From Candidatus Thiothrix sulfatifontis (GTDB taxonomy: Bacteria; Pseudomonadota; Gammaproteobacteria; Thiotrichales; Thiotrichaceae), in NCBI GenBank assembly GCA_022828425.1, contig CP094685.1:1240001-1304000 (forward strand): a stretch of DNA of 64,000 nt. The letters run 5' to 3'. Below the pieces are notes generated by a model. That model ran no database searches and had not been told where the DNA came from. It worked only from the letters and a program-made list of their open reading frames with translations. Shown here piece after piece: positions 38,492 through 63,059 of this stretch. The position numbers and the translations under genes are program-made. Within the stretch, counting starts at the first letter, position 1; every line of letters begins with the position of its first letter.

Positions 38492-39655
38492 CTATTCCGC
38501 GTCAAATTCCAGCGCCGCCACTACCGGCATGGCGTGACCGATAATCCCCTGCAATGCGCCGTACATGCCTGTCGTGCTGCCGATCACCCGTTGCAACTGC
38601 TTTTCACGTTCTGCCCAATGTTTTTCCATCGCGCGGCGTTCTTTGTGGATTTGCGCTTGCATGGTGTCGAAGGCTTCCACAATCGCTTCCACCCGTTGGC
38701 GGAATTCGTCACCGGACAGGTAACGCCACAGCAATTCCATTTTCGCATCCAAACCCTGATTGGCGGCGCGTGCAAAGCTCACCGCCAGCAATTGTTCGCG
38801 CAATACGGCGGCGAGGGCAGGCCAGCTTTTCAAATCACTGACCCAGATGCCGTCAATGCGCCCGAAACCGCGAATCTGTTCCGGCACAACGACCGACACC
38901 AAGACTGCCAGTGCTGCTCCGGCGGTACGTTGGTCTTCTTTGAGTTTGTCGAGCCAAGCGGGTTGCCAAGCTTTGGTGTTTTTCGATTCCCAAATGATCG
39001 CGCCGCATTCTTGCAACTGGCTGTTGATCACGGTTTGGATAATATCCGCGCCGCGCATTCCTTTCGGCACGGGTTGGATGCTGTCGTGCGGGAAGGTGTG
39101 TTGCAGGGTGGTTTGCATGTCCTGTTCTAGCACTTCGCCTTGTAACTCTTGGGAACCGAGTTCGCTGCGGCGTTTGGCGTTTTCTAAGTCTTTGAGCAGA
39201 TTGCTGATTTGCTGATCTTTTTGTTTGAGCTTGAGGTCTTGTTCCTCGGCGATTTGATTGCGCAGACTGTGTTCGAGTTGCTGGCGGGCGGTGTCGAGAC
39301 GGCGTTGAATTTCGATTTCCATGTCGCGGGCGCGGGCTTCGAGTTCGGCTTTTTCTTGGCGCAATTGCAGCTCGGCTTGGTTAGCGGTGGCGATGCGCTG
39401 TTGGCTGGCGTCGAGTTGTTGTTTCAGCAGGGCAATGTCTTGCAAGGCTTGGCGCTGTTGTTCGCTCACTTGTTGTTGCAGCAGTTCGCGCTCGTGTTGC
39501 AGGCGCTGTTGCGCTTGTTGTTCGGCGCGGGCGGTGGCGGCAATGATCGCTTGTTGCTGTTCGGCGGCGAGTTCTTGGCGCATTTGCCCGCGTAGTACGT
39601 CGGAAATGGCAATGGTTGTGCCGCACTGGTGGCATTCGATGGTGGTGTCTTGCAT
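38492..39655 (-). CDS. DUF2130 protein: zinc-ribbon, long coiled coil and nuclease-like C-terminus
   Basis: A 387-residue protein. A small Cys pair (C8, C11, CHQC) starts the sequence. Residues about 25-175 form a long Gln/Glu/Arg-rich coiled coil. The C-terminal half is the DUF2130 domain, with residues compatible with a PD-(D/E)XK nuclease core: Asp204 in RGADIIQ and Glu223/Lys225 in IIWESKNTK. The function of the family is not established. Upstream of the gene is the same palindrome and -10 arrangement found before the cas operons (39686-39731), so it may be co-regulated with the CRISPR system. Confidence 0.85.
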   Translation of the reverse strand: MQDTTIECHQCGTTIAISDVLRGQMRQELAAEQQQAIIAATARAEQQAQQRLQHERELLQQQVSEQQRQALQDIALLKQQLDASQQRIATANQAELQLRQEKAELEARARDMEIEIQRRLDTARQQLEHSLRNQIAEEQDLKLKQKDQQISNLLKDLENAKRRSELGSQELQGEVLEQDMQTTLQHTFPHDSIQPVPKGMRGADIIQTVINSQLQECGAIIWESKNTKAWQPAWLDKLKEDQRTAGAALAVLVSVVVPEQIRGFGRIDGIWVSDLKSWPALAAVLREQLLAVSFARAANQGLDAKMELLWRYLSGDEFRQRVEAIVEAFDTMQAQIHKERRAMEKHWAEREKQLQRVIGSTTGMYGALQGIIGHAMPVVAALEFDAE

Positions 39656-39685
39656 GGTGATAGCCCTTGGTTACTGGATGCGCAG

Positions 39686-39731
39686 AGTATAGGCGCAACC
39701 CGCGACGAAGGGCAGTTTGGCAAGCTTGTCA
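39686..39731 (-). promoter_or_regulatory. Putative CRISPR-regulon activator site and promoter (site A, DUF2130 gene)
   Basis: On the minus strand, TGACAAGCTTGCCA (39731-39718) is followed after exactly 26 nt by TATACT (39691-39686), and 30 nt later by the DUF2130 start. No -35 consensus is present; the palindrome is centred near -45, where class II activators bind. The same arrangement occurs at 45374-45419, 46885-46930 and 58192-58237. Confidence 0.6.
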
Positions 39732-40117: not shown

Positions 40118-40158
40118 ACTTTTGCTGAAATTAAAGCTACCCTCATGAATCGAAAGGC

Positions 40159-41576
40159 GTCTTAATCCCTTTTAAATCAGGGCGGTCTTCAGAAACCTCT
40201 TTCTACCTTCAAAGGTGTGTCGGGATTCGTCTTAATCCCTTTTAAATCAGGGCGGTCTTCAGAAACCTTGAAACGGGTGTAACGAAGAAGATCAAGCGTC
40301 TTAATCCCTTTTAAATCAGGGCGGTCTTCAGAATTTTTGCAGATGCCGAATCAGCCAGCTTGTCATCGTCTTAATCCCTTTTAAATCAGGGCGGTCTTCA
40401 GAACTTGTTGCCAACAAACTAACACTTACTTACCAAGTCTTAATCCCTTTTAAATCAGGGCGGTCTTCAGAAATAGTACCGATAATGCTATTGCTAGATT
40501 TGACGGGTCTTAATCCCTTTTAAATCAGGGCGGTCTTCAGAATTTTTCACTACGCAAAAGAAGGCGGGATGATGAGGTCTTAATCCCTTTTAAATCAGGG
40601 CGGTCTTCAGAACCATTCCACTTCCCAAAAACGCACAATAGAGGTGGTCTTAATCCCTTTTAAATCAGGGCGGTCTTCAGAAGTGTCTTTTTCAATTGGT
40701 AAAGTATCTAAAACGTCTTAATCCCTTTTAAATCAGGGCGGTCTTCAGAACCTACTAAGGTACGCTATACGTTCAAAGAAACCGTGTCTTAATCCCTTTT
40801 AAATCAGGGCGGTCTTCAGAAGAAATTGAGGTAACACAATGGTCTAGCAAAATGTCTTAATCCCTTTTAAATCAGGGCGGTCTTCAGAAGAGTTTGTGTT
40901 ATGAGCAACGTGACTTTTGGAACGTCTTAATCCCTTTTAAATCAGGGCGGTCTTCAGAGTCAAAATTTGCTGTACAGAATAAAAATTATTGTCTTAATCC
41001 CTTTTAAATCAGGGCGGTCTTCAGAGCTATCACGTTCCGGGGCTCTGTGGAACCCAACACGTCTTAATCCCTTTTAAATCAGGGCGGTCTTCAGAGATGG
41101 CAAGATTGCCAGCGTGCCTGAAGAAGAGGCGTCTTAATCCCTTTTAAATCAGGGCGGTCTTCAGAGGCCGTTGCACCAATGGATGTAAGGCTTGGCGACA
41201 GTCTTAATCCCTTTTAAATCAGGGCGGTCTTCAGAGAACATGCACCAAGGAAGGTGCGGGTCAAGTAGTCTTAATCCCTTTTAAATCAGGGCGGTCTTCA
41301 GAGAGGGCAATGAAGGGGTACACGACGGGTCAAGGGGTCTTAATCCCTTTTAAATCAGGGCGGTCTTCAGAGCCGTATTTCCCGTGCACGCGTGAATCAC
41401 GGAAGTCTTAATCCCTTTTAAATCAGGGCGGTCTTCAGAGCTTTAGAAGACTTTAATCACAATGAGGGCTGGTCTTAATCCCTTTTAAATCAGGGCGGTC
41501 TTCAGAGGTTAAGCATCAGGCAGAATGCCCTGTTTGTGGTGTCTTAATCCCTTTTAAATCAGGGCGGTCTTCAGAG
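40159..41576 (-). CRISPR. CRISPR array 1: 21 repeats, 20 spacers
   Basis: The repeat is 36 nt; in transcript direction (leftward) it begins TTCTGAAGACCG and ends GGGATTAAGAC. Spacers are 31-35 nt. The leader is on the right, inferred from a conserved flank present to the right of all three arrays. The 3' eight bases ATTAAGAC would form the crRNA 5' handle, resembling the ATTGAAAC-type handles of type III systems. Repeats 1-11 from the left begin with T in transcript direction. Repeats 12-21, those next to the leader, begin with C instead. Confidence 0.98.
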
Positions 41577-41756
41577 GGCTCGTGTCTAATCGGCCTTTTG
41601 AATCAGTGGGTTACAGAGACCCTTAGCAGGAAATTCACTGTGCAAAAAGTTGTCTTGGGCGAAAATACAACAAGATGAGTTTTTAAAGAAGCGACACGCT
41701 CAGGTTTTGCGTGTTAATGGGTTGATTTTACAATGATTTAGCGGCGAATGGAAGGA
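41577..41756 (-). promoter_or_regulatory. Leader of CRISPR array 1
   Basis: About 180 bp directly right of the last repeat, beginning GGCTCGTGTCTAATCGG on the plus strand. It is highly similar over its whole length to the flank of array 2 and over the first 80-90 bp to that of array 3. Minus-strand transcription from here would run into the array. At the position where arrays 2 and 3 have TATACA (possible -10) this leader has TGCACA. Confidence 0.8.
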
Positions 41757-42360: not shown

Positions 42361-42684
42361 CTACAACGTATCCCGATTATAGCGCAGTTGTGCAGGCAAC
42401 TTCGCCCCCGTCAGCAGCACGCCGTCATCCCACAACGCCTTGCCCAACGTCACCCACTCCGGCGCATTCGGCAACGGGTACACCCGAATATCATCCTGCT
42501 TGGGGTGGATCAAGGTACGCAAATGCTTCAACACCTTCTCGCGCCGTTCTGCATCCAACTCAATCAAAAACACCGAATACTGCAACGGCAACGCAATCTT
42601 TTTCAGGTAACGGTGTACCCGCCCCAACCGCTTAGGGCTGGCAATGTCATACGCAATAATATGCGGCAAACGCCGATGCGCCAT
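42361..42684 (-). CDS. cas2: Cas2 (second copy of the locus)
   Basis: A 107-residue Cas2 of the adaptation complex. The first strand carries the conserved aspartate (IIAYDIASPKRLGRVHRYL, Asp13). The ferredoxin-like fold continues with LPLQYSVFLIELDAERREKVL and IHPKQDDIRVYPLP. Its ATG overlaps the stop of the upstream cas1-like gene (TAATG), so translation is coupled. It differs clearly from the other Cas2 at 44413. Confidence 0.93.
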   Translation of the reverse strand: MAHRRLPHIIAYDIASPKRLGRVHRYLKKIALPLQYSVFLIELDAERREKVLKHLRTLIHPKQDDIRVYPLPNAPEWVTLGKALWDDGVLLTGAKLPAQLRYNRDTL

Positions 42685-43454
42685 TAGTCCGCCTCCTGAT
42701 GTTTCAGCAAACGCCACAAGCGATTCAACGCCACCCGTGCGCGTTCCTCAAAATGCCCGTGATGCGTTTCGTAAAAATGCACCATGCTGTAACGCAAACC
42801 CTTTTCCGCAAACACCTGCGGCACATCCCCACGCACCACCAGCCAATACGCTTCCAGCAGCAACAGCTTTTCCACATCCCGCGACAGATGCACCCGCCGC
42901 GTCAACGGCAACTGGATATTGTCACTAAACCCATACACCGCCAGCACCTCACTCACATGGCTGGCAATCGGCGCTTGCAACTGCGCCACAAACAGCGCAA
43001 AGCGGCACGGCAATTGCGCCTGCACCAACGGTTCCACCTGCGCCATCACCCGCTGCGCCACCGACCCCAGTAACGGACGTTGGCAAGCCCGCGCCATGCG
43101 CTGCACCCAGCGGCTTTCCTCATGCACCCGCCACTGCTGATACAACGCATCCCCCAGCGCATCATCCGCGCAAGCGTGCAACAACGCCTCCAACGAGGTT
43201 TGGCTGCTGCGGTCACTCAAACAATGCCCCACCAACACCCCATCGCGCCCGCGAAATGCCACCGGAATCCCGTATTCCAGACACGCCAGCAACGCCGCCG
43301 TTTCCCACTCCACCTTACCCGTCACCACCACCCGCGAAATGCGCCGCAACGGGTAAAAACGATCCGCCTGCTCATGCGCTTGCACCCGCAACGCCACCGC
43401 ATCCAACCCCACCGCATTCGCCTGCGCCACATCCAAATACAACGGTTTACGCAT
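42684..43454 (-). CDS. Shortened Cas1-like protein lacking the usual catalytic residues
   Basis: A 256-residue protein. Residues about 1-85 look like the beta-stranded N-terminal domain of Cas1: YLDVAQANAVGLD, FYPLRRISRVVVTGKVEW, ACLEYGIPVAFRGRDGVLVG. The helical second half does not show the Cas1 metal site: I find no EGAAAR, no LGFYH-type histidine and no SLAxDLxE segment. It may be a catalytically dead Cas1 partner. It overlaps the active cas1 by 8 bp and the second cas2 by 1 bp, so it is firmly part of the adaptation operon and has a clean full-length frame. Confidence 0.75.
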   Translation of the reverse strand: MRKPLYLDVAQANAVGLDAVALRVQAHEQADRFYPLRRISRVVVTGKVEWETAALLACLEYGIPVAFRGRDGVLVGHCLSDRSSQTSLEALLHACADDALGDALYQQWRVHEESRWVQRMARACQRPLLGSVAQRVMAQVEPLVQAQLPCRFALFVAQLQAPIASHVSEVLAVYGFSDNIQLPLTRRVHLSRDVEKLLLLEAYWLVVRGDVPQVFAEKGLRYSMVHFYETHHGHFEERARVALNRLWRLLKHQEAD

Positions 43455-44400
43455 AAGATTCCCCCTCCCATTCCCGCATGGCTTTGATCAACCCACGCAC
43501 CTGCCAGCGCATCGCCCGCCCCAAGGGGCGCAAGCGCGTTTCCAAACTCGCAAAAAACACCTGCCGCCCCGCCTTATCCAAAAAGCAGCCGTTCACATCC
43601 GTCTTGAAATGGTGTTCGCGCAACGTCTGGGTACGAAAACATTCCCACACCCACGCATCAATGTGCGGTCGCCACACCTCGATCAAATCCGATGCCAACG
43701 ATTCCCGCCCGAAACTGGTTTCGTGATAAAACCCCAGCAACGGCTCCAGCCCATGCGTGTGGATAATCTGCACCGCGCGGTTATGCAACAAGGTATACGC
43801 CAGCGACAAGGTAGCATTCACCGGGTCAGGCGGCGGACGCCGTTTACGCCCCGCAAACCCCAACGCCGCAGGCAACACCGCCGCAAACGCGCCAAACATT
43901 GCCCGCGCCGCCGCGCCTTCCATCCCCAACAACGATGCCAAACTTTCGGCGTTTTCCAGATTCGCCAATTGCGTCCGCAATTGCTGCTGCGCATCCGTCA
44001 ACGCCTTACGCTGATCCGCCCGCTCCACCAGCATCTCATCCAACAAGCGCAAATGCGCCGCGAATTTCGCCGCCAACACCTGCCGCGTAAACGCCAGCCG
44101 CCACGCCGAATCTTGCGCCAGCCGATAATGCAGCAAACGAATGCTGGCATCGTTATGCCCGCTGCCCAGCAACACCGCCCGCCGCTGCGGTTTGCGCTGG
44201 CTGGCAACACTGAACGCAATGCCGTGTTCCGCCAATGTCCCCAATACGCTGGTATCCAATTGCACATTGGCAAGGCACACCACCCGCTCCAGCAACGCCA
44301 ACGGCACCGGGCGCTGGCGCACCTCACCCAGCCGCGCCACCAGCGTTGCGCCTTCCACCTCCAACGTGGCATTTTTATGATCAATGTATAACGTTGTCAT
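43447..44400 (-). CDS. cas1: Cas1 integrase
   Basis: A 317-residue Cas1, the spacer integrase. The catalytic residues are present: Glu161 (GMEGAAARAMF), His226 (LLGFYHETSFGRESLA) and Asp238 (SDLIEVWRP). An N-terminal beta domain (LYIDHKNATLEVEG, VVCLANVQLDTSVLGTLAEHGIAFSVAS) precedes the helical domain. No reverse transcriptase or Cas6 domain is fused. It is flanked by a cas2 on one side and the Cas1-like/Cas2 pair on the other. Confidence 0.95.
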   Translation of the reverse strand: MTTLYIDHKNATLEVEGATLVARLGEVRQRPVPLALLERVVCLANVQLDTSVLGTLAEHGIAFSVASQRKPQRRAVLLGSGHNDASIRLLHYRLAQDSAWRLAFTRQVLAAKFAAHLRLLDEMLVERADQRKALTDAQQQLRTQLANLENAESLASLLGMEGAAARAMFGAFAAVLPAALGFAGRKRRPPPDPVNATLSLAYTLLHNRAVQIIHTHGLEPLLGFYHETSFGRESLASDLIEVWRPHIDAWVWECFRTQTLREHHFKTDVNGCFLDKAGRQVFFASLETRLRPLGRAMRWQVRGLIKAMREWEGESYA

Positions 44401-44412
44401 GATTCCCCCCCT

Positions 44413-44703
44413 TCACCCCAGATAAAACCAGTCCGGGTCAACCGGCGCGACCCCCAAGCCCAGCGTATGCACTGTCTGCCGCGCATCCAGCCGAATCAGC
44501 AGAAAACTGTCGTCATCCTCATCCAGAATAAAGCTCATATCGCCCAGCAATTCGCCTTTTTCCGCATCCGTCAACCACACCTCATGCACCGACTTTTGCC
44601 CACCCGTGGCATACGCCCGCACACAATGCAACGCCGCCCGCAGCCGCCCCGCATCACTCACGTCATACGCCGCGAGGTACAACACCCGCTGACTGTCAGC
44701 CAT
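44413..44703 (-). CDS. cas2: Cas2 (first copy of the locus)
   Basis: A 96-residue Cas2: VLYLAAYDVSDAGRLRAAL with Asp14, then TGGQKSVHEVWLTDAEKGEL and DDDSFLLIRLD. The ATG at 44703 has a GGTGG ribosome-binding site; an in-frame GTG four codons earlier is also possible. Its start lies 7 bp inside the 3' end of the SAVED-like gene or just beyond it depending on start choice, so these genes form one operon. Confidence 0.88.
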   Translation of the reverse strand: MADSQRVLYLAAYDVSDAGRLRAALHCVRAYATGGQKSVHEVWLTDAEKGELLGDMSFILDEDDDSFLLIRLDARQTVHTLGLGVAPVDPDWFYLG

Positions 44704-45241
44704 GTTCCACCCCACTAAACGCGGGTACGGCGGGCAGTTTCAGCAAGCCAAACCCGTGGTAGCCCTCACCCTCGTGGTGATACAACAGCACCGGGCAACC
44801 GTTGCCGAGTTCCGCGCCGACCATTGCCGCCGCCATGCCGGGGCCTGCGTGGAAGTAGTGGATACGGTCAACGCCTTGCGCGTACATTTTCCCGACTTGC
44901 TGGCGCACACTGGCTTTGAAGGCATCGAGTTGATACACGCCCAGCCCGTCACGTTGCAGGTGAAACACCCGTTCACGCGGAATGTCGCGCAAGTTGTCGT
45001 GTTGCTGGCAATAGTTTTCCACCGCCGCGCGGATATTGCGCCCCGGCAACAAGTCGATAATGAAAATGGCAGGGCGATTGCCCGGAGCGGTGCGGATGGC
45101 TTGCAGGTATTGGCGGTAACGGCGGCGATTGCCCCATACCACCTGATACCACGTCCAGAACACCGGAATGGCGAGGATTAGCCCGATGACGATACCGAGC
45201 GGGTCGAGGATGGTGGTGATAATGTCGAGTAGTGGTTGCAT
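44696..45241 (-). CDS. Membrane-anchored SAVED-like protein, candidate cyclic-nucleotide effector
   Basis: A 181-residue protein with one N-terminal hydrophobic segment (about residues 8-35). A soluble domain resembles SAVED, the CARF-related sensor of cyclic oligonucleotides in CBASS and some type III CRISPR systems. Supporting segments are RPAIFIIDLLPGRNIRAAVENY and the C-terminal RIHYFHAGPGMAAAMVGAELGNG and VLLYHHEGEGYHGFGLLKLP. It is short and seems to hold a single half-domain. As first gene of the cas2-cas1 operon it may be a membrane effector or sensor; this is inference from weak but patterned similarity. Confidence 0.62.
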   Translation of the reverse strand: MQPLLDIITTILDPLGIVIGLILAIPVFWTWYQVVWGNRRRYRQYLQAIRTAPGNRPAIFIIDLLPGRNIRAAVENYCQQHDNLRDIPRERVFHLQRDGLGVYQLDAFKASVRQQVGKMYAQGVDRIHYFHAGPGMAAAMVGAELGNGCPVLLYHHEGEGYHGFGLLKLPAVPAFSGVEHG

Positions 45242-45373: not shown

Positions 45374-45419
45374 ATCATGCCGCAAATAGGGGAAGAAGTC
45401 GGCAATGACAAGCTTGTCA
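45374..45419 (-). promoter_or_regulatory. Putative CRISPR-regulon activator site and promoter (site B, SAVED-cas2-cas1 operon)
   Basis: The perfect palindrome TGACAAGCTTGTCA (45419-45406, minus strand) is followed after 26 nt by CATGAT (45379-45374), a weaker -10 than at the other three sites. The distance to the SAVED-like start is 132 nt, but falls to about 26-37 nt when the inverted-repeat element at 45263-45369 is subtracted, close to the other sites. The palindrome overlaps the last codon of the upstream card1 gene. Confidence 0.55.
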
Positions 45420-46550
45420 GTTAGGCTGCATCCATTGCTCCAGATGGCTACGCAGTTGTTGCAGTTGCGTGCCATGCAGCACCTTGATGCGTAAGTCTTT
45501 GGCTCGCTGCATGTCGTAATCCGGCAACGGTTTGTAGCTGACCAGCATGGCACGCGCTTGCAGGCCACCAATCGCATCCGCCAGACTGTCGAGTTTGTAG
45601 AGCGTTTCCGCCCCGCTGTGGCTATCGCCGCGCTTAAAGTTTTTGGCTTTGCATTCAATCAGGTGCAAGCGATTATCCGCTAAAAACACCACATCCAGTT
45701 CATTGGGGATTTTGCCGGGGTCACGTTCCACTGACAGGCTTTGCGCGGTGTCTTGAATCGACGGAAGCTGTTTTTTCAGGCTGTTCACCGTGGCAAACAC
45801 GTACTGTTCCAACCAGCCACCGTTGGCAAAAAAGCGGGCTGATTCGCTGCTGAACACCAGACGTTGATCCTGTTGTTGCAATACACCGATCTGTTCGAGT
45901 CGGTCGAGCAAGTCTTGCAAGGCATCAAATCGCTGGTGTTGCTTGTCCAGTACCTCCGAGCGCAGGCTACGTTCCGCTGTATTGGCATACCAGTTCAATA
46001 CACCGAGCGCCCCGGAAAAATACTGGATGTGTTGAATCAGCTCCTGCGCAAAGTCACGGTAATCCGGCGGCACTTGCACTGACCCACGTTCCGTTACCCG
46101 TCGCCCGTGTGCTTGGATGAAGTGTGGAATACGGATACGCTGTGCAAGCTGATGGCGGGCTTGACCCGTTGGATGCATCCAGATGATTTGGTCTTTTTCC
46201 GGGTGCACATAGAAAATGGGTTTGTCCAAGGCGCGAAAGGCTTCATAAGCGGCAATGCTCATCGGCTTGGTTCCGCCCGTGGCATTCAGCATGATGTTTT
46301 CATCATCGTGTTGCACCAGCAAATCCAGCACCCGGTCGCGGATGTGTTCGATATTCCACGGGTGTTCAATTGACCAACGCGATACTTTGACACCTGCTGT
46401 CGCTTTCAGGACTTGTTCCAGCCAGTCTGCACGGGTTTGCATGTCAGGGCTGACCAGCAGGATAACTCGGTCAGGGCGGATGTCGGCATCCAGCGTGGGC
46501 GTAATATTGGGTGTTGCTTGCCCAGAAACGAGGTAAAGGTGGGTTTTCAT
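45417..46550 (-). CDS. Card1/Can2-like CARF nuclease (DUF1887)
   Basis: A 377-residue effector of type III CRISPR systems. The N-terminal CARF domain carries the ligand loop NATGGTKPMS (residues 89-98). The C-terminal PD-(D/E)XK nuclease domain has GGWLEQYV (residues 244-251), Asp286 in NELDVVF and the E-x-K pair Glu299/Lys301 in LIECKAKN. Characterised relatives Card1 and Can2 are switched on by cyclic tetra-adenylate and cut RNA and/or single-stranded or supercoiled DNA. All key residues are intact. Its start overlaps the csx16 stop by 4 bp. Confidence 0.92.
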   Translation of the reverse strand: MKTHLYLVSGQATPNITPTLDADIRPDRVILLVSPDMQTRADWLEQVLKATAGVKVSRWSIEHPWNIEHIRDRVLDLLVQHDDENIMLNATGGTKPMSIAAYEAFRALDKPIFYVHPEKDQIIWMHPTGQARHQLAQRIRIPHFIQAHGRRVTERGSVQVPPDYRDFAQELIQHIQYFSGALGVLNWYANTAERSLRSEVLDKQHQRFDALQDLLDRLEQIGVLQQQDQRLVFSSESARFFANGGWLEQYVFATVNSLKKQLPSIQDTAQSLSVERDPGKIPNELDVVFLADNRLHLIECKAKNFKRGDSHSGAETLYKLDSLADAIGGLQARAMLVSYKPLPDYDMQRAKDLRIKVLHGTQLQQLRSHLEQWMQPN

Positions 46551-46843
46551 ACGGCTTTCCGTTGTGCCGCATAGCCTTCTAACCGCGCCCCGTAGGTACG
46601 CATATCTTCCGCCGTCAATTCCTTACCCCGCGCATCCGCTGGCAATTCCAACGTCAGGTGAAAATACGTGCCGCCCCGCGCATTCACTTCCGCCACCAGA
46701 TTGATCGGCAACGTGCCAAGGATTCTGTCACCCGGCTGCACGATAGCCACATCGAAATGCGCCAGCCGCTCATCGACGTGAAAGCCTTCCGATTCTGCCC
46801 AATCGACCGCACCGGGGTGGCGCGAGATGAAGTAAGTGGTCAT
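46547..46843 (-). CDS. csx16: Csx16, CRISPR-associated small protein
   Basis: A 98-residue Csx16: TTYFISRHPGAVDWAESEG, HFDVAIVQPGDRILGTLPINLVAEV, HLTLELPADARGKELTAEDM. The family is found only with type III loci and has been proposed to be a ring nuclease that degrades cyclic oligoadenylate, which would turn off Card1 encoded directly downstream. It is the first gene after the conserved palindrome at 46917-46930. Confidence 0.9.
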   Translation of the reverse strand: MTTYFISRHPGAVDWAESEGFHVDERLAHFDVAIVQPGDRILGTLPINLVAEVNARGGTYFHLTLELPADARGKELTAEDMRTYGARLEGYAAQRKAV

Positions 46844-46884: not shown

Positions 46885-46930
46885 AGTGTAAAGCAGGGCA
46901 GGGGGCGGCGCGAGGTTGGCAAGCTTGTCG
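46885..46930 (-). promoter_or_regulatory. Putative CRISPR-regulon activator site and promoter (site C, csx16-card1)
   Basis: CGACAAGCTTGCCA (46930-46917, minus strand; 12 of 14 bases as in the perfect palindrome) is followed after exactly 26 nt by TACACT (46890-46885), and 41 nt later by the csx16 ATG. The region between is very GC-rich and has no -35 box. Confidence 0.58.
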
Positions 46931-48841: not shown

Positions 48842-49710
48842 GGCTTAATCCCTTTTAAATCAGGGCGGTCTTCAGAATCATCCGAAAGCGATAAAGGCGA
48901 AAGGTTCAAGTCTTAATCCCTTTTAAATCAGGGCGGTCTTCAGAAGCGATAGATCGGGAATTGAATACCACATTTAGGGTCTTAATCCCTTTTAAATCAG
49001 GGCGGTCTTCAGAAGAAATTTGTTTACGAAAAAGGATTAAATGGGAGTCTTAATCCCTTTTAAATCAGGGCGGTCTTCAGAAAGATTTTGGTTATGTTAC
49101 CAAAGTAAACCGCAAAACGTCTTAATCCCTTTTAAATCAGGGCGGTCTTCAGAATGATGTTGAAGATAACTATGCAGGATGGGTAAAGTCTTAATCCCTT
49201 TTAAATCAGGGCGGTCTTCAGAAGTAACTCCTCCTCTCCTAGCGGGTTGGCAGGGCGTCTTAATCCCTTTTAAATCAGGGCGGTCTTCAGAACGATTAAA
49301 TAAGAGGTATCAACCATGTTCACAAGTCTTAATCCCTTTTAAATCAGGGCGGTCTTCAGAATACAACGTCACGTCGGGTAAGAAATACAAAATCCGTCTT
49401 AATCCCTTTTAAATCAGGGCGGTCTTCAGAAAGAAGAGTACACTAAGGTCATGTCATGCTCTCAGTCTTAATCCCTTTTAAATCAGGGCGGTCTTCAGAA
49501 GCCTAAGATGTACCGTAAGATGAAGGAGCAGGCAGTCTTAATCCCTTTTAAATCAGGGCGGTCTTCAGAATTATTGCTGTAAAGCGTGTCGTAAAAAAGC
49601 AGAAAAGTCTTAATCCCTTTTAAATCAGGGCGGTCTTCAGAAGCTGCTGTGTTGACGTTTGGTGCTAAGAAATAGTCTTAATCCCTTTTAAATCAGGGCG
49701 GTCTTCAGAA
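48842..49710 (-). CRISPR. CRISPR array 2: 13 repeats, 12 spacers
   Basis: Same 36-nt repeat as array 1, all with the original T as first base in transcript direction. The leftmost repeat (48842-48877) has one substitution near its end, as expected for the leader-distal terminal repeat. Spacers are 32-36 nt. The leader is on the right (49711 onward). Confidence 0.98.
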
Positions 49711-49893
49711 GGCTCGTGTCTAATCGGCCTTTTGAATCAATGGGTTACAGAGACCCTTAGCAGGAAATTCACTGTATAAAAAGTTGCCTTGGGCGAAAAT
49801 GTATCACTGGCAGATTGTTAAAGAAGCGACACGCTCAGGTTTTTCGTGTTAGTGTGCTGATTTTACAATGATTTTTTGAAAAATGGAAGGATT
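49711..49893 (-). promoter_or_regulatory. Leader of CRISPR array 2
   Basis: About 180 bp similar to the leader of array 1 and ending at the shared GGAAGGATTATTC next to the flanking gene. On the minus strand, CAACTTTTTATACAGTG holds a possible -10 (TATACA) about 60 bp before the first repeat. GCGACACGCTCAGG and TTTTACAATGATT blocks are conserved with array 1. Confidence 0.8.
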
Positions 49894-51888: not shown

Positions 51889-53450
51889 TTATATCCAAAC
51901 CCTGACTAAATCTTTACCATTAACTTCGGCGTTGACTTTGATGCGTGAGTTGGGCTTTTGCACCTCTTTTCTGATGTTTTCTGCTAACGTTTCCAGTAGT
52001 TCACGTCCTTTAGGCTGGTAAGCGTAAGCAATTGGCTTGCCCTTTTGCTCAAGGTGCAATGTGCCATTTTTAAGATTAAATTTCAGGTATCCTTCAATGG
52101 CTTGCGGTTGAGATTCGGCAATAATCGCGGCTTGTTGTGTCTGCAATACTGCACTGTGTTTGCCGCTGGCTTGCTGCAATTTTTCCTGCCGTTGCTGGTC
52201 TTTGTCCTGCCAAGGTTTCATCAATGTTTGCAGTTCGGCATCGGAGGCATCATCCAGTTCCACCAATACCCAACCGAAAGGCAACATCCCGCTACGGTCT
52301 TTTTCAGTGTTGGCTGCCAACCATACGGTTTTAGCTTCTGCTTGGTAAGAAGATTTTTGTTTGCCGTCTGCACCTTTACCTTCCAGTATTTTGATACTGC
52401 GGACACCTTCGATGGTGACAGATTCAGCCCCGCTATGCCGCCCGACGCGTAGCAAAAAGGCTTTGCCTGCTTTCATTTTCTGGTAAATCACGCCACTGGT
52501 AATGGCTTCGGCGAGTTTTTCCCAGTCCGGGTGCAGATAGCGACGTTCCCGTAAAACTTTCATTTCGGCGACGAAACGCTTGTGATAGAAATAATTGCAA
52601 GTAGAGGCAATATCTTGCACCGTCCAGCGTAATTCTTTGGTTGGTGTGCCTTTGCCTGTCATGCCTTGCAAGTCTTGCACGCTCAATGTGCCACCAAAAC
52701 TGCGGTAGCGTAGTGCTGGCAAACATTCCAGAAGCTGGTAAAGGTTTTGGGCTTCAGCTTGTGATTGCACAATTTGCCCGTCTTTGACGACTTCTTTTTT
52801 CTTACGGTCAACGGCGAAGCGGATTTCACTACCAAAGAGTGTTGGGGTCTGGTAATTCGCATCGCCCAAGCTGATTAGCCGCATTGGGTCAGTGGCAAAT
52901 TTACCCTGCATCAAACGTTCTTGTAGTTCTCTATTTTTTTCATTCCGGTGCTGCAATGGTTTCCCATCATTCACATCATCCAGCAAAGCAGTGCGGATTG
53001 CGCCTTTGATACTGCTACCGGGAATAATGGATGCCGGCTATACGGGTTGAAAAAGGTGCGCTGGATTTCCAACTTGTTGACCACGCTTTTGCCACCGCTT
53101 TCACGGTTGGCACTTTGCCCAACACGCTTCTGGTACAAATCAAACACCCCAGCACTGACAGGCAGGAAATGGCTGGATGCAGCCGCCAATGGCTTGCGGT
53201 TGTTGTAGAAGAAATCCTGTACCTGTTTGATCATGTCTTCGGCGCGGCGAGTCGGTTTACTCACCATCTCCAACAGGTCTTTACGTTGCCGTTCGGTCAA
53301 AACACGGTTGGCGACATCGCTGTCAAACGCAAACAGGGCTTCCTCTTCCATCACGTAATTGGTGGGTTCGTAGTCTTCGCCGATCCCCACATGCACAGGT
53401 GATAACGGCGTGATGTGCAGGGTGACGCTTTCCATTGTGTTGGTTTTCAT
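51889..53450 (-). pseudogene. csm5: csm5, type III-A RAMP protein, frameshifted
   Basis: The N-terminal part (53450 to about 53020) is Csm5-like: LHITPLSPVHVGIGEDYEPTNYV, the first RAMP half. It then runs out of frame and stops at 52971. The frame open from about 53025 down to 51889 continues directly with IPGSSIKGAIRTALLDDVNDG, the glycine-rich RAMP loop, and the rest of Csm5. One base is missing near 53020-53030 (in the sequence coding HPL-IPG). Joined length is about 520 residues. It is either a real mutation or an assembly error. It overlaps csm4 by 4 bp. Confidence 0.85.
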
Positions 53451-54378
53451 GCTTGCTCCACCGGCTTAAAGTGAATCGGAATCACGGGCGCGTAGCCTTG
53501 TTGCACCGTTTCAGGAATCTGTTTGGATAATTGCCCGTTTCCACCCAGCCCTTGCCCGATAAACGTGGTCGTTGCACTGAGTTGTGCTGAACTGAAGACT
53601 GCGCCTGTTTTTGCCATTAACACAGGTGTTTTGAACGGTTTACCCGCTTGTACAGCCTGCCCACCGTGCCGCCCGAAACGGGTAAAAAGCTGGTAATAGC
53701 TGTTGGCTGCATCAAAGTTCAAACCTTGAGGCGCACTGGGGGCAAGCGTCAGCACGGCATTGGCGTTTGGATTGGCTGGCAAGGCTTGAGTGGTCGTTGC
53801 CTGCACTTCAAATTTGCCTAAACCAACACTGGCATCACGCCCGAAACCCACATTCCCCATTTGCTCGAAAAGCTGTGTTAGTGTTTCCGCCGTTAATTTG
53901 CTCTCATCAAAAACCACGTGCACATCCAGCAAGGTATCTGCTTTGTACCAGTGTTGATCCAGCGCATAGGGGCAAAACCATCCCCGGTTGTACCTGTTAA
54001 ACGGCTGATGCTGTTGTGTTGCTGAAGGTGTTCTTCAATGAAATCCTTCGCTTCACACACTGACAACCAGTCCGCAAACGGTTTGTCGAGTGCGCTCAAG
54101 GTTAGCCAAGCCTGCTTTTTTACGGCTTTACGGTCGGCATTTTCGATTGGCTGGAAGAAATACAGCGGTACATTCGGGCGTGGCACATAACCGTGTGGCA
54201 AGGCATCGGATACCACTGCAAACGGCTTGCCAGTCGTATAATCGTCGAGCAATTCCTTCAACTTGCTTTCGCCCATGCCATCCCGCAATAACCAGCACAA
54301 CTGTCCAAACAGCGTGTCACCCATCGGCAATGTGCCGAAGGCAGACAGCGGGCGTAATGTCAGGGTCAGGGTTTGCAT
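53447..54378 (-). pseudogene. csm4: csm4, type III-A RAMP protein, frameshifted
   Basis: The N-terminal frame (54378 to about 53972) is Csm4: LRPLSAFGTLPMGDTLFGQLCWLL, PHGYVPRPNVPLYFF, ISRLTGTTGDGFAP. Continuity is lost at a run of four C (53969-53972). The other frame picks up with YALDQHWYKADTLLDVHVVFDE and the glycine-rich VGFGRDASVGLGKFEV, down to the stop at 53447. Restoring a fifth C would fuse them into about 310 residues, the normal Csm4 size. Homopolymer loss can be biological or technical. Confidence 0.85.
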
Positions 54379-54379
54379 A

Positions 54380-55096
54380 TCAGGCTGCCTCACCGAAAGT
54401 CACGGCATCCAGTTTGGCTTGTATGTCGGTATTGCCCAGTTTGAGGTCAACGAATTCAATCTTCCCGTAACCGCGTGACAATGAACCCCCCAAGCCCGTC
54501 AATTCGATCAGCTTCAAACCTTGGAACAGCATATCGCTCAGGTCTTCGCCGTCATGTACTTTCAGTGTCAGTCTGAAATCGAACTCTGCACCTGCTGGAA
54601 CACGCTCGGTATTACGCGGGTGTTGCGCGACACCTTGAATACGGTCAATGGTGTTTTCCATTTTGGTTTCAGTGAACAGACGGTTTTTGTCGGATACTTC
54701 ACGTTTTGCCCAGTTCTGATTCAGTGAGCAATCCCAGAATGCCAGACGGGTGGGGCCGATTTCTGCAATCAGTTTTTCGTCATTTTTTGGATCAGGCGAA
54801 CCACCAAAAAGCTTCAGCAATTGCTTGGCTGCTGCCTGATTCGGGGTTTTGGTGATGTCTTTGAAGCTCAACGGTTTGCCTTCGGTCAAGCCAACAACAC
54901 CCAGTTGCCATTCGAGCAGGCTACGCATTTTGCCTTTCAAACTGGAGCCGGGAATATACGGTTGTCCGGTCAGCGGGTTTTTGATGACGGGATTATCCGT
55001 GCCACCGATGTGCATTTCTTCGCTACCTGCACCGATGTGCAAGCCAGTCAACAGGCGGATTTTGCCTTGCAGAAGTTGGATATTGGTCAATTGCAT
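54380..55096 (-). CDS. csm3: Csm3, backbone RNase subunit of the Csm complex
   Basis: A 238-residue Csm3, intact. It forms the helical backbone along the crRNA and cleaves target RNA every six nucleotides. The catalytic loop LHIGAGSEEMHIGGTDNPV contains the aspartate expected at about position 34. The RAMP signature is YIPGSSLKGKMRSLLEW, and a second glycine-rich loop is ELTGLGGSLSRGYGKIEF. A GGAG ribosome-binding site precedes the ATG. Confidence 0.95.
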   Translation of the reverse strand: MQLTNIQLLQGKIRLLTGLHIGAGSEEMHIGGTDNPVIKNPLTGQPYIPGSSLKGKMRSLLEWQLGVVGLTEGKPLSFKDITKTPNQAAAKQLLKLFGGSPDPKNDEKLIAEIGPTRLAFWDCSLNQNWAKREVSDKNRLFTETKMENTIDRIQGVAQHPRNTERVPAGAEFDFRLTLKVHDGEDLSDMLFQGLKLIELTGLGGSLSRGYGKIEFVDLKLGNTDIQAKLDAVTFGEAA

Positions 55097-55108
55097 GTCG
55101 GTTCTCCG

Positions 55109-55489
55109 TCAGTCTTTCTTTTCCAGTTTGTAAAAGCCCAGCATCGCCTCAAAAAACAGCTTGAAGGTGCGTAGTGTTTTGTCATCTGTCACTTGTTGCA
55201 GGCAGTGCTGCATGAGCATCGTGAAGTTATTATCCACATGCCCGCGCCCTTCGGCATACGCTGCTTTAGCGTTTAACATGCGGATGAAAGGTAGATACTC
55301 CGCAAATTTCGCCGGATTTTGAGTGGCTTTGGTTTCCCACATCAGCAATTCATCGTAGAAACGCCGGATTTGGGTGGACTTGTTTTGTTCCCTTCTTTGC
55401 GTGTCCGCTAAGGTTTGTGCGGTTTGTTGTGCAACGCTATTGAACAACTCCGCATCAATCGGGTTGAACTTGATCAGTTTTATATCCAT
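55109..55489 (-). CDS. csm2: Csm2, small subunit of the Csm complex
   Basis: A 126-residue all-helical Csm2, intact (TQIRRFYDELLMWETKATQNPAKFAEYLPFIRMLNAKAAYAEGRG in part). It binds target RNA along the second filament of the complex. The presence of Csm2 places the system in subtype III-A rather than III-B. It starts 4 bp after the cas10 stop. Confidence 0.9.
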   Translation of the reverse strand: MDIKLIKFNPIDAELFNSVAQQTAQTLADTQRREQNKSTQIRRFYDELLMWETKATQNPAKFAEYLPFIRMLNAKAAYAEGRGHVDNNFTMLMQHCLQQVTDDKTLRTFKLFFEAMLGFYKLEKKD

Positions 55490-55493
55490 GCAC

Positions 55494-58151
55494 TTATCTC
55501 CGGTGTTGATAGATGTGGGTAAACAAGGCGATGCGGTAGTTACCCTTGTGTTTTTCGATGCCTTGGCTGGCGATTGCCAGACTCAATTCAGCTTGCAAAC
55601 GTCTGCGCTCGGTTTCATCCAGCTTGCGTCCATCCCGACGACGGGTTTCCAGCATCCGGTAAGTGCGGTAGACAAAGCGTGAATGCCAAACGGCGTTTTC
55701 TGGTTTGCTGCGGTCTTCGGCAAGACTGGTGAGGTTTAGCAGCCCGTATAGGTAGCCGGTACTCAAATCAAAATCTTTGCGCATGATATTCAGTTGCTGG
55801 GCACATTCCAGCAGATCATTGAAATGTTCCCAGCTTGCGCGGATGAGCAAAACATGTAACCGCATTTTTGGGTGAAACATTTCCCTTTTTGTTGTAAGAC
55901 TTGGCTTGATCAAGTGCCGCTTCTGCCATATCCGCCAAATAGTTGATCGGCAAGCCCGGTTTGGTGATGGAAAGCCCCGCCGAGAAATGCACATCGGGGT
56001 TTTCACCGACGTAGCGTTTGAATTCCACCTGCATCCGCTGCGCCAGTTTCATGGTAGAACGCCACTGCCCAATCGAGGAAAAAGTCATCCCCACCCGCAA
56101 ACACGGTGTAAGTGTTCGGGAATTCCTTCTGGCACAGATACGGCAACCAGATAGAGAAAAAGGCATTCATCTGACGCGATAATGCCGCCATTTTTGCAAA
56201 GCTGGGCGCACCGATGCCGCGTTGAAAAATGATGCCAAGGTTGTCTACGTCACCTTTCAAGGTCATCAAGGCACTGATGCCAATCCAATTGCCTTTTTCA
56301 TCCATCCATTGATCTTCATCGGCAAGATGGTTGAGTGTTTTGGTTTCGCCCTCAGCCTTCTCATAGATTTCGTCGGTATCGGTATATTTGTCGAAGGTGT
56401 CGAAATCAGCTTTGGTGAAGCGCGGAATCCAAGCATTGATGGCGCGGCGGGCATAGCCTTTCCATAATGGTTTGTCGGCGGTATCCGGTAAGGAAAAGTC
56501 GAAGGCTCGCAACAGGTTTGCTTCTCGTGCCAACTGTCCGAATTTGCCGGTAATATCTTCGCTTTTGGTGAAACTAACATGGAAACCAAAAATCGGCAGT
56601 TTCAGGGTGTTATGGTTCAAGTCATCACGGGTTATTAGCAAGCGTTTGAAGCTGGTCAGGTATTGCCCCACCTTGATTTGATCGGCGGCAAGACGGCTAA
56701 TCCATTTATCTTCCAATGCCACAACACCGGGTGAACGCCCATCAATGGCGCACACGGTTTTATTGTTATCGAACGCATCCAAGAACCCGTCAAATACCAT
56801 CGGTGCTTCAGCCGTACACAAATCAAAACGGCACAGTTTGACCTTTTCCAATTGCTCAAACAGCCGTTTCATCAAGTCGCTGAACTTGCCTTGCGTGAAG
56901 TCATTGCACGCAGCAGGCAACCACGCCAACCCTACGCCCGATTGCCCGAAGGTATGGTCAATGAACCATTGATTCAGTTCGTGCTGCACCTTTTCGAGTT
57001 TTTGGATGGTTTCTGGCGTATTCGGCGCAACGATCAGGAATTTACCAGCCGCATTGGTCACTTGGCTAGTGGAGGGTAAACCCAGCACATCCATAATCTT
57101 GAGCGCGGCACATTCCATCAGCAGGGAAACGTAGAACGAACGCCCACGCAACAGCTTTGCGGCACGTTTACGGGTTTCGCCACCGCTGGCAAAGATGAAA
57201 TCTTGAATACCGAAAAAGTCACCTTGCACCAACAAGAATTTAGGTGTTTCCCAACCTTGTTTTAAGGATTCGCCGGTTTCCAGATTGTTTTGATGATGGT
57301 ACTGCCACAATGCTACTGCCAACGCTGCGGTGGTTTTGGAATGGTCATACAGCGACACATCCGCTTTGATGTTCTGATTCATCGGTGACACGGTAGCCGC
57401 TGGGATGGCATGGGCGTACACCTGCCAAAGCGTATCGAAATGGTCTAACCATAACGGTAGATTTTTGCGGTGTGCATCGGGAATCTTGGTCAATGCTTCA
57501 CGGAAACCCTGCCATAATGCTTTGTATTCTGCCTGTGCCTTGGCGTTGTTGCCTTCAGGCTCGCACTGTTCTTTTTTCTGCGGGAACAGGCTATCAACCG
57601 TCAACGCTTGCAACGCATAGCGGTAATTCAGTTTTTCTGCTGCTTTGCCATCCAGCCGGATTTGTTCCAACAGGGTGAGCTGGCGGGTGGTGTAGTGATT
57701 GAGTTTGGCTTTTTCATCATCGGCAAGTTTGTTGTAGTCCTCAAACTTCTCGCGCTCAAAACCAGAAGCTACGCGGTCGGCAGTGGCAATCACCCATTGC
57801 AAAAACGTACCCGGTTTGTGGTGCATTGCCGCTGCATTGATCAATGAATCATCGGCATTGCGATCTTTCCACGATTTGAACGGGGTCATGTCATCCCCGA
57901 CCAGATCAGGCATGTGCTGTTCCAGCAAATCAAAACCCATCGCGGTGTAAGCTGCATGGATGTGGGTATGCCGTTCGTTATACTTCGGGCAATAAAGCTG
58001 CACGTTCAGGTCGCGGCGTTGGTTGCCGTCTGCGTCTTTTTGATGGGCTTCGTCGATACGCGCCCGTTCTGCAAACTTCCCCAAGTCGTGCAAAAATGCC
58101 GCTAATGCAACCCGCCCGGATGATGTGTGGTTCTTTGAAGGTTAGTGCCAT
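55494..58151 (-). pseudogene. cas10: cas10/csm1 with three apparent frameshifts
   Basis: About 885 residues in three frames. The ATG at 58151 (with AAGGG ribosome-binding site) opens MALTFKEPH, then loses frame near 58105-58130. The main frame continues with SGRVALAAFLHDLGKFAERA (HD nuclease motif) to the cyclase motif FAGGDDFFL. Frame is lost again at 56070-56080, where one extra G is inserted before IGQWRSTMKL. A third shift near 55835-55850 leads to the C-terminal frame (SWEHFNDLLE). The HD and GGDD motifs are present, but no continuous product can be made. Without repair, neither target-dependent DNA cleavage nor cyclic oligoadenylate synthesis is expected. Confidence 0.88.
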
Positions 58152-58191: not shown

Positions 58192-58237
58192 AGTATTAAC
58201 TAAACACCCCCACTTGTCACCCATGACAAGCTTGTCA
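58192..58237 (-). promoter_or_regulatory. Putative CRISPR-regulon activator site and promoter (site D, cas10 operon)
   Basis: The perfect palindrome TGACAAGCTTGTCA (58237-58224, minus strand) is followed after exactly 26 nt by AATACT (58197-58192), and 40 nt later by the cas10 ATG. A half-site repeat (GTGACAAG) lies directly after the palindrome. Spacing agrees with sites A and C. Confidence 0.62.
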
Positions 58238-60292: not shown

Positions 60293-60819
60293 GTCTTAAT
60301 CCCTTTTAAATCAGGGCGGTCTTCAGAACAAGCAATCGGAATCTTCCTGTTAATAGGATTTGTGTCTTAATCCCTTTTAAATCAGGGCGGTATTCAGAAA
60401 GTTACCGAAACACAACTAAGGCACTTCTCAGGGGGTCTTAATCCCTTTTAAATCAGGGCGGTCTTCAGAACAGGGAATGGCAAGGTGTGACGGTATTGTT
60501 AGGTCTTAATCCCTTTTAAATCAGGGCGGTCTTCAGAACGCCACATTTACCAGCGTTAGACCTGCGCTTTTCGTCTTAATCCCTTTTAAATCAGGGCGGT
60601 CTTCAGAAGCTTTTTTCGTCCAGAATTGTATAGTATCTGGACAAGTCTTAATCCCTTTTAAATCAGGGCGGTCTTCAGAAATGCAGACCATTATGGGTGC
60701 ATTCACCGCAGCGTCTTAATCCCTTTTAAATCAGGGCGGTCTTCAGAAATTCCATTTACCGCCCCATGTAGCCTTTCCCGGATGTCTTAATCCCTTTTAA
60801 ATCAGGGCGGTCTTCAGAA
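60293..60819 (-). CRISPR. CRISPR array 3: 8 repeats, 7 spacers
   Basis: Same 36-nt repeat. The second repeat from the left (60364-60399) has one C-to-A change. Spacers are 32-36 nt. The leader is on the right. The array lies between vapBC and a Uma2 gene. Confidence 0.98.
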
Positions 60820-60925
60820 GGCTCGTGTCTAATCAGCGTTTTGAATCAATGAGTTACAGAGACCCTTAGCAGGAAATGCACTGTATAAAAAGTTGTCTTG
60901 AAAGAAAACTGATCAAGTTAGGTTT
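60820..60925 (-). promoter_or_regulatory. Leader of CRISPR array 3
   Basis: It is similar to the other leaders over the first 85 bp (GGCTCGTGTCTAATC, GAGACCCTTAGCAGGAAAT, CTGTATAAAAAGTTG on the plus strand) and then diverges. On the minus strand it keeps TATACA as possible -10. The shorter conserved part marks the minimal leader. Confidence 0.75.
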
Positions 60926-60969
60926 TTAAGCAAGCAACGCAGCCCTGTGTCCGTGTGAATAGATTAATC

Positions 60970-61644: not shown

Positions 61645-62607
61645 TCAAATCGCCTTTTCCCCAGTATAGCAGTCGAGCGCATACCCGCCCATGCCCATCA
61701 CCGCGCCTTTCCCCGCGTGTACCCATTGCCCCAACCACAGCCAAGGCCAGAAATCTTCCAACCCGCTCAATTCCAGCGAAAAGCTACCCACCAGCCCGCC
61801 CATCTGCACATGATTTTGCTGGCGATTGGAATAACGCGCCCACTCATGCCAGTGCAAATCCGCCTCTTCCAATGTCACCGCCGCCGCTTGCTGGCTCAAC
61901 GCCTTAAAATCACCCGGCAATTCCACTCCCGCATGATAAGCGTGCAATAAGGTAATCCGCCGCATCAACGCATTGATAAACAACTGAAACATAAACCGGC
62001 TGCTGCGTATCGGCGTCCCCTCCTGCAACAAGCGCAACGGCGTCAACAAACGTACTCGCACCCCTTGTGGCATCGGCGGAATCAGCGGCACAACCCCCGC
62101 TAACGCTTGCAAACTTCCCCCCTCCGCCTGAATTTGCGCCCATTCCCCCGCCCCCGGCGCAAGCTCCTGTGCCACCGCCATCAACGCATAACGCCCATCG
62201 CCCTTACCGATTCCGCGTTCCCCCACCTGCTGCATTGCGTGGATCAAATACGGCAAATGCCCGATCGCCGCCCCCAGCAAACTCAACTCCAGCGCAAACA
62301 CTTCCCCCGGCGCATACTGCCGCCCGGATGTTGCCAAGGGCTGCATAATGTAAGGGTGGGGGGCGGCATTAATCTTTTCCAGCAATGGCCCCTGACCCGC
62401 AGGCGTTTCAAACACCTGACTGTAAACACAGGAACGCCACAACAAACACTGGCGACAATCCGGCTCACGGGTAATGCACACCGTGCGCCGCAAGGCATGA
62501 CCAAACGCGCCGCGCCAAGTCGAGCCAGCATAAGCGGGGAATTGAATCGGGGTCAGCGCCCGCAGCGTCAAACGGTAACGGGCAATCGGCAGGTTAAACG
62601 GGTGCAT
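61645..62607 (-). CDS. cas6: Cas6, crRNA-processing endoribonuclease
   Basis: A 320-residue Cas6 of the larger RAMP type. The N-terminal ferredoxin-like part (IARYRLTLRALTPIQFPAYAGSTWRGAFGHALRR in part) includes a cysteine cluster CRQCLLWRSC. The C-terminal glycine-rich loop is AGKGAVMGMGGYAL. It should cut the repeat transcripts of all three arrays to leave the 8-nt handle. The ATG overlaps the phaR stop (TAATG), so its translation depends on phaR; the upstream extension of the frame lies inside phaR and is rejected. Confidence 0.9.
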   Translation of the reverse strand: MHPFNLPIARYRLTLRALTPIQFPAYAGSTWRGAFGHALRRTVCITREPDCRQCLLWRSCVYSQVFETPAGQGPLLEKINAAPHPYIMQPLATSGRQYAPGEVFALELSLLGAAIGHLPYLIHAMQQVGERGIGKGDGRYALMAVAQELAPGAGEWAQIQAEGGSLQALAGVVPLIPPMPQGVRVRLLTPLRLLQEGTPIRSSRFMFQLFINALMRRITLLHAYHAGVELPGDFKALSQQAAAVTLEEADLHWHEWARYSNRQQNHVQMGGLVGSFSLELSGLEDFWPWLWLGQWVHAGKGAVMGMGGYALDCYTGEKAI

Positions 62608-63059
62608 TATTTCTTCGGCTGCACATTGCCCAAGATGCTTTCCTGCATTTTTTTCCAAGTCTCGATGTTTTGCTCGCCGACTTTCATCCACATCTCCAGC
62701 GGTGTGCCAGCCAGCACTTTGTGCATCTGTTCCTGCATTGCGGTTTGCTGGCTGGTAAACAGCCCGACGCTTTGCTCCATGTATTCCATAAAGCCCTTGC
62801 GGGTCGCGTCACTGTAGTTGCGGATAAATTGCGCCAGAATATCGGTGCTGAACAAGGGCTGTCCGCCCGATTCCTGTTCCATAATGATTTGCAGCAAGAT
62901 ACTGCGGGTAATGTCATCGCCAGACTGACGGTCGATGACTTTGAAAGGCGTTTCCGCCAAGACTAAATCGCGGACATCACTCAGGGTGATATAACAACTC
63001 TGGTTGGTGTCGTACAAGCGGCGATTGGGGTATTTCTTAATAATGCGTTCTTCGGCCAT
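62607..63059 (-). CDS. phaR: PhaR, polyhydroxyalkanoate synthesis regulator
   Basis: A 150-residue PhaR: RIIKKYPNRRLYDTNQSCYITLSDVRDLVL is the DNA-binding N-terminus (shown in part), followed by the PHB-accumulation regulator helices (QPLFSTDILAQFIRNY). It represses phasin and PHA genes until it binds to nascent PHA granules. The ATG at 63059 gives the canonical start MAEERIIKKYPN. It lies in tandem with phaB and immediately before cas6. Confidence 0.94.
   Translation of the reverse strand: MAEERIIKKYPNRRLYDTNQSCYITLSDVRDLVLAETPFKVIDRQSGDDITRSILLQIIMEQESGGQPLFSTDILAQFIRNYSDATRKGFMEYMEQSVGLFTSQQTAMQEQMHKVLAGTPLEMWMKVGEQNIETWKKMQESILGNVQPKK

Follow-up and report, generated by a model that had tools for sequence, protein, structure and literature searches.

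The stretch of 64,000 nucleotides analysed here (the window) belongs to a genome of the genus Thiothrix and carries, at 38492-39655 on the minus strand, a solitary gene for a 387-aa protein of the DUF2130 family (PF09903; E 1.4e-65, 221.6 bits versus a cut-off of 26.7 with the Pfam profile), in agreement with the strand and extent given in a preliminary description. The nearest named orthologues come from T. caldifontis, T. lacustris and T. fructosivorans. Genes for phasin and PEP carboxylase lie on one side, and CRISPR array 1 (40157-41592, approximate ends) is, as had been described, the neighbour on the 5' side, next to the promoter, with DUF2130 transcribed away from the array. The CRISPR region further comprises, all on the minus strand, an adaptation operon (a SAVED-TM gene, cas2, cas1 and a second diverged cas1; 42684-45241), csx16 (46547-46843) together with a gene for a CARF-PDDEXK protein (45417-46550; the pair spanning 45417-46843), the type III-A genes cas10 and csm2-csm5 (51889-58093), a gene for an NE0113-family CARF protein (PF09623; 58355-59572) that is a candidate regulator, and cas6 (61645-62691). 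The search for cas genes revealed no cas4. In the assembly each of cas10, csm4 and csm5 is interrupted by a frameshift when compared with intact relatives, which may indicate that type III-A interference is broken in this strain or that there are assembly errors at 51889-58093. The second diverged cas1 (42684-43454) follows cas1, and PADLOC contains a model for such second Cas1 proteins. A sequence that borders both arrays at their ends (41540-41695 and 49674-49829) has a third copy (87%) at 60783-60938, which may be an orphan leader or an array remnant.

The AF2 model of the DUF2130 protein (46 sequences, mean pLDDT 84.7) shows, in this order, two short strands with the CxxC motif, a helix of residues 17-164, an alpha/beta domain of residues 169-293 and long C-terminal helices. 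C8 and C11 of the N-terminal ribbon (residues 5-16; 39608-39643, minus strand), whose model strands are of low confidence, are invariant in an alignment of 46 relatives from many phyla; exceptions are L113 and L126, which are partial or late-starting ORFs. The long helix (39164-39607, minus strand) is a coiled-coil region by predicted secondary structure, with a pLDDT of about 90 over most of its length. The domain of residues 169-293 (38777-39151, minus strand) is predicted to belong to the PD-(D/E)XK nuclease fold. VIA-align matched it over about 110 residues to McrC (Z 11.0), VC1899 (Card1; 10.6), Cdn1 (9.5), Can2 (9.4), Hjc (9.3) and Can1 (9.1), and the archaeal SSO0001, which we take to be a Cas4 protein, was also among the structural matches (VIA Z 7.3). 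Foldseek matches, including BstEII and SPARDA, were weak on their own (best E 2e-3), and a fold comparison of this kind speaks for a shared fold, not for a function. The D...E-x-K active site appears intact and conserved, with E177, D204, E223 and K225 invariant in the alignment, and with this fold and site the protein is a putative metal-dependent nuclease. Structure prediction therefore agrees with the earlier proposal of a protein compatible with a PD-(D/E)XK nuclease, and the Cys pair, coiled coil, D204 and E223-x-K225 on which that proposal was built are all present, with the correction that there is one CxxC pair.

With Pfam, NCBIfam or PADLOC the protein gave no match to CARF, SAVED or Cas4. 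PADLOC has no DUF2130 model, and its LmuB matches are weak and probably caused by the coiled coil. A relative with a solved structure was not found by sequence. A coiled coil combined with a PD-(D/E)XK domain is also the architecture of RmuC, but homology to RmuC was rejected, since the Pfam scan gave no RmuC match and hhalign returned a probability of 0.1 against the RmuC of the genome itself.

A palindrome, read TGACAAGCTTGCCA on the strand of the DUF2130 gene, lies upstream at 39718-39731 and is followed 26 nt downstream by the -10 box TATACT (39686-39691, minus strand). Genome-wide matching found three exact copies of TGRCAAGCTTGYCA in the 3.69-Mb genome (39718, 45406 and 58224), all in the CRISPR region of the window, and a copy with one mismatch before csx16 (46917), while the reversed palindrome, used as a control, had zero matches in 63 genomes of the family. 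The composite palindrome-N26-TANNNT, with one mismatch or fewer, occurs four times genome-wide, each time in the window on the minus strand and ahead of correctly oriented genes: besides DUF2130 these are the SAVED-cas2-cas1-cas1' operon (45374-45419, with CATGAT), csx16 with the Can2/Card1-like CARF-PDDEXK gene (46885-46930, one palindrome mismatch, -10 TACACT) and cas10-csm (58192-58237, -10 AATACT). The preliminary description had noted the same palindrome and spacing before three cas operons, and the gap is indeed exactly 26 nt in all four cases; the second of these operons starts with the SAVED-family gene. Summed over 16 Thiothrix genomes the composite gave 49 matches versus 5 for the reversed control. 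For 39 palindromes located upstream of annotated cas or DUF2130 genes and chosen regardless of any -10 box, similarity to TATAAT peaked at a gap of 26 nt (4.23 of 6 positions, versus 0.6-2.4 at all other gaps between 18 and 35). At this distance the palindrome would be centred at about -45, immediately upstream of -35, where activator dimers commonly bind.

Across Thiothrix and other genera of its family, the element precedes cas10, cmr1, cas6, NE0113, csx16 and the SAVED-cas2-cas1 operon, and in G049 (T. caldifontis) and G056 the type I-F operon encoding Cas8f, Cas5f, Cas7f and Cas6f also lies behind it. In these two genomes the palindrome is found 64 bp before the cas8f operon (L067:1952-5960 and L080:6238-10249, respectively), so that the regulon crosses CRISPR types. 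All identifiable and correctly placed genes behind such sites are cas genes or DUF2130, which is the only identified non-cas target, and palindrome copies lacking a suitable -10 box mostly resemble chance matches within coding sequence. The element is present before DUF2130 in six Thiothrix genomes (G000, G049, G052, G056, G060 and G061). It is kept in G049, where a different gene lies upstream with its junction at the palindrome, and in G052, where no recognised CRISPR genes occur in the 18 kb neighbourhood of DUF2130. Between G000 and G052 the palindrome (14/14) and the -10 box (6/6) are identical, compared with 14/26 positions of the spacer and 7/20 of the upstream sequence. The site thus did not merely come along with its surroundings, in line with the co-regulation proposed earlier. 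Orthologues with neither palindrome nor CRISPR neighbourhood had been named as evidence against that proposal; next to the six that keep the palindrome, those of Thiothrix G054 and G059 lack it. In G053 DUF2130 is a truncated pseudogene with a decayed palindrome, and G051 has lost the palindrome and part of the coiled coil by deletion. Four other Thiothrix genomes (G048, G050, G057 and G058) contain NE0113 without DUF2130, which is therefore dispensable. The genome G060 retains DUF2130, the sites and adaptation genes without an NE0113 hit, a gene content that fits adaptation as well as interference.

A possible ligand of the palindrome is the NE0113 protein, which has a CARF fold (Cad1 CARF, Z 16.2). 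Such proteins are annotated in databases as ring nuclease Csm6 and have been predicted to act as direct transcription regulators (PMC4012209). Of the 19 family genomes in which the element lies close to cas genes, 18 carry NE0113 (G060 being the exception), a count confounded by the occurrence of type III systems. Its C-terminus resembles PhoB by secondary structure and alignment and might form a winged-helix domain; against PDB profiles it matched the DNA-binding domain of KdpE alone (E 0.47), and the fold search covered the CARF part. Because of the confounding with type III systems and the weakly supported DNA-binding domain, we consider NE0113 as the protein binding the palindrome a possibility that is on balance doubtful.

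Outside Thiothrix, a search of DUF2130 loci in public genomes and a survey of the class found DUF2130 within or next to type III operons at six loci from Beta-, Alpha- and Gammaproteobacteria and one uncultured bacterium, mostly on short metagenome contigs. In the type III-B locus L111 (Betaproteobacteria) the gene order is cas6-NE0113-DUF2130-cmr1-cas10-cmr3-cmr4-cmr5-cmr6-csx16, and in the III-A locus L138 (uncultured bacterium) it is cas6-NE0113-x-DUF2130-cas10. L121 (Alphaproteobacteria) shows DUF2130-cas10, L110 (Chromatiales) a partial cas6 followed by DUF2130, and L292 (genome G135, from a survey of the class) cas6-DUF2130-NE0113. In L126 DUF2130 overlaps a CARF-adenosine deaminase gene, which is followed by NE0113. 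This overlap with the start of the Cad1-like deaminase gene (L126:73-2990) suggests translational coupling. Neither cas1 nor cas2 was detected on the contigs of these type III-linked genes, and the palindrome was not found upstream of CRISPR-linked DUF2130 outside Thiothrix. In a tree of 110 DUF2130 proteins, one clade (SH-aLRT 98) holds all nine Thiothrix sequences and five of the six linked loci, with L138 standing apart. With linkage defined as a type III gene on the same strand no more than 4 kb away, half of the non-Thiothrix clade members (5 of 10) are linked, versus 1 of 74 other DUF2130 genes that have 2.5 kb or more of context (Fisher p = 4.6e-5, to be read as a guide, since the sample is biased towards sequences related to the query, the rows share descent and some context is lost at contig ends). 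In a sixth clade member, L114, cas6 lies 3 kb away on the opposite strand. Two members of the clade without cas neighbours (L112:8684-9163 and L115:944-1471) have in common a conserved gene, 160-175 aa long and assigned to no Pfam family, that overlaps the start of DUF2130.

Judged by gene neighbourhoods, recurrent location in type III operons appears to be a property of one DUF2130 clade and one outlier. The preliminary description of DUF2130 as a CRISPR-linked, nuclease-like protein that might co-occur with type III loci accordingly stands for these sequences and does not extend to the family as a whole, in which most genes lack a CRISPR neighbour. DUF2130 is spread over many bacterial phyla, and a survey of 397 genomes from the phylum found DUF2130 (15) and NE0113 (24) together in the genome of the window alone, so the idea of a generally CRISPR-linked family was rejected. 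In the class, some 40 further genomes have DUF2130, and G135 is the one in which it adjoins NE0113; the order of G135, in which more operons were sought, comprised three genomes. A census of Cas10 with PF22335 was set aside, as it was swamped by weak matches that are probably diguanylate cyclases. Plasmid-borne DUF2130 genes come mostly from rhizobial plasmids (about 36-46% identical), and others were found in seven Helicobacter phages and four viral contigs. At L293:987-10655 a type I restriction-modification operon ends with a DUF2130 gene from a different clade, which is preceded by a large AAA_13 gene and hsdR, and a further DUF2130 gene (L251) lies beside an OLD-like ATPase.

We propose that the DUF2130 protein is an accessory nuclease of type III CRISPR-Cas immunity that lacks a CARF or SAVED sensor of its own and is controlled by transcription, a reading whose chances we judge to be evenly balanced. 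On this view its N-terminus would resemble a zinc ribbon, its long coiled coil would mediate self-assembly, and its PD-(D/E)XK domain, whose active site is intact, would do the cutting. A dimeric DNA-binding protein would sit on the palindrome some 45 bp upstream of the transcription start, just behind the -35 position, and would raise expression of cas10-csm, cmr, cas6, the adaptation genes, csx16, the type I-F operon and DUF2130 together, whereupon the nuclease might work beside the Csm/Cmr complex, cutting nucleic acid of the invader. Elsewhere in the Proteobacteria an operon shared with cas6, NE0113 and cas10 could provide such coupling. The use of the palindrome as an activator site, the nuclease activity and the substrate and role of the enzyme in interference are our interpretation; the promoter element with its fixed spacing and cas targets, the operons, the clade and the conserved active site are seen at the level of sequence. 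A wider version of the proposal, in which a clade of DUF2130 proteins consists of sensor-less type III accessory nucleases coupled by transcription and, in the Thiothrix family, a single dimeric regulator, possibly a cyclic oligoadenylate-sensing NE0113 protein, joins III-A, III-B, I-F, adaptation and the nuclease through one palindromic promoter, is more tentative, and we lean against it in its full form.

The position next to cas6, NE0113, cas10 or cmr genes instead of cas1-cas2, the intact site and the co-regulation lead us to favour a nuclease of interference over an adaptation helper, that is, a Cas4-like PD-(D/E)XK nuclease trimming prespacers for Cas1-Cas2. The latter could explain why DUF2130 adjoins array 1 and has a promoter type in common with the SAVED-cas2-cas1-cas1' operon, and is consistent with the failure to see cas4, with the gene content of G060 (DUF2130, cas1-cas2 and sites) and with the structural match to SSO0001. 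Yet outside Thiothrix the gene adjoins cas6, NE0113, cmr1 or cas10 on contigs without detected cas1 or cas2, and the four-cysteine cluster of Cas4 is absent, which makes an adaptation role unlikely. In L110, L111, L138 and L292 cas6 is a direct neighbour of DUF2130 or its operon, and in G049 it lies nearby. This proximity might instead point to trimming of the 3' ends of type III crRNAs after Cas6 cleavage. Most PD-(D/E)XK enzymes cut DNA, and several Thiothrix genomes with type III genes lack DUF2130, so that we regard such a maturation role as improbable, even though type III immunity is known to make use of housekeeping nucleases (PMC9762709) and Cdn1, which has the same fold, was described as a ribonuclease (PMC12825302).

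Slightly less probable still is that DUF2130 is a general defence-island nuclease that came to lie in or near CRISPR loci by chance and acquired its promoter by recombination. Its occurrence in other contexts, such as the end of the restriction-modification operon of L293 or beside the OLD-like ATPase of L251, agrees with such a passenger, but the palindrome is kept under divergence and across changed neighbours, the gene is repeatedly embedded between cas genes with frames overlapping or nearly touching, and the association with type III genes holds at the level of a clade. Whatever the role of the protein, the palindrome might be a repressor site from which DUF2130 and the cas genes are derepressed together on a signal, since a site of this kind close to a promoter may serve either activation or repression. 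Sites of activators typically have a fixed place just upstream of -35 and do not cover the -10 box or the start, as is the case here, and repression therefore seems rather unlikely to us.

Similar to the proposed DUF2130 nuclease, Card1/Can2, Can1 and Cdn1 are type III-linked, have a PD-(D/E)XK domain and are among its closest structural matches. However, these enzymes possess CARF sensors and are switched by cyclic oligoadenylate, whereas DUF2130 has a CxxC ribbon and a coiled coil instead of a recognisable CARF or SAVED domain. McrC, the top structural match, and the CoCoNuT coiled-coil nucleases (PMC11090510) offer a further parallel, with a coiled coil plus nuclease and CARF neighbours, but they act with an McrB-type GTPase partner and contain DUF2357. 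In the DUF2130 protein DUF2357 was not found with Pfam, and there was no McrB homologue among the identified neighbours. Cas4 is also a PD-(D/E)XK nuclease of CRISPR loci with cysteines, from which DUF2130 differs by its single CxxC, its long coiled coil and the lack of a Cas4 profile match. In the literature searched we found no paper on the function of DUF2130, and those that name it deal, judged by title and abstract, with other matters, although published inventories of genes accessory to type III systems (Shah 2019, Shmakov 2018) may already list it. The clade would thus represent a predicted type III ancillary nuclease without a sensor domain and apparently unrecognised so far, and its function is directly testable because two independent lines link it to type III systems and the predicted nuclease domain has an intact site.

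For the palindrome, a model is provided by Csa3, a CARF-type regulator acting on palindromic sites of CRISPR promoters (PMC8844856, PMC8699464). Csa3 is archaeal and tied to type I, whereas the candidate here is NE0113 and the regulon spans III-A, III-B and I-F. Genes of several CRISPR types appear to be united by this element in a single regulon within one bacterial family, and the element could serve to trace the regulator. Promoters of cas10 in several Thiothrix genomes, including that at 58192-58237, carry an additional half site (TGACAAG or TGACAGG) in the same direction a few bases after the palindrome. In another genus (G018) a palindrome variant whose two arms carry matching changes, TCGCAAGCTTGCGA at L102:1054, sits between NE0113 and cas10, 26 nt before a -10-like box, which possibly reflects co-evolution of the site and its regulator.
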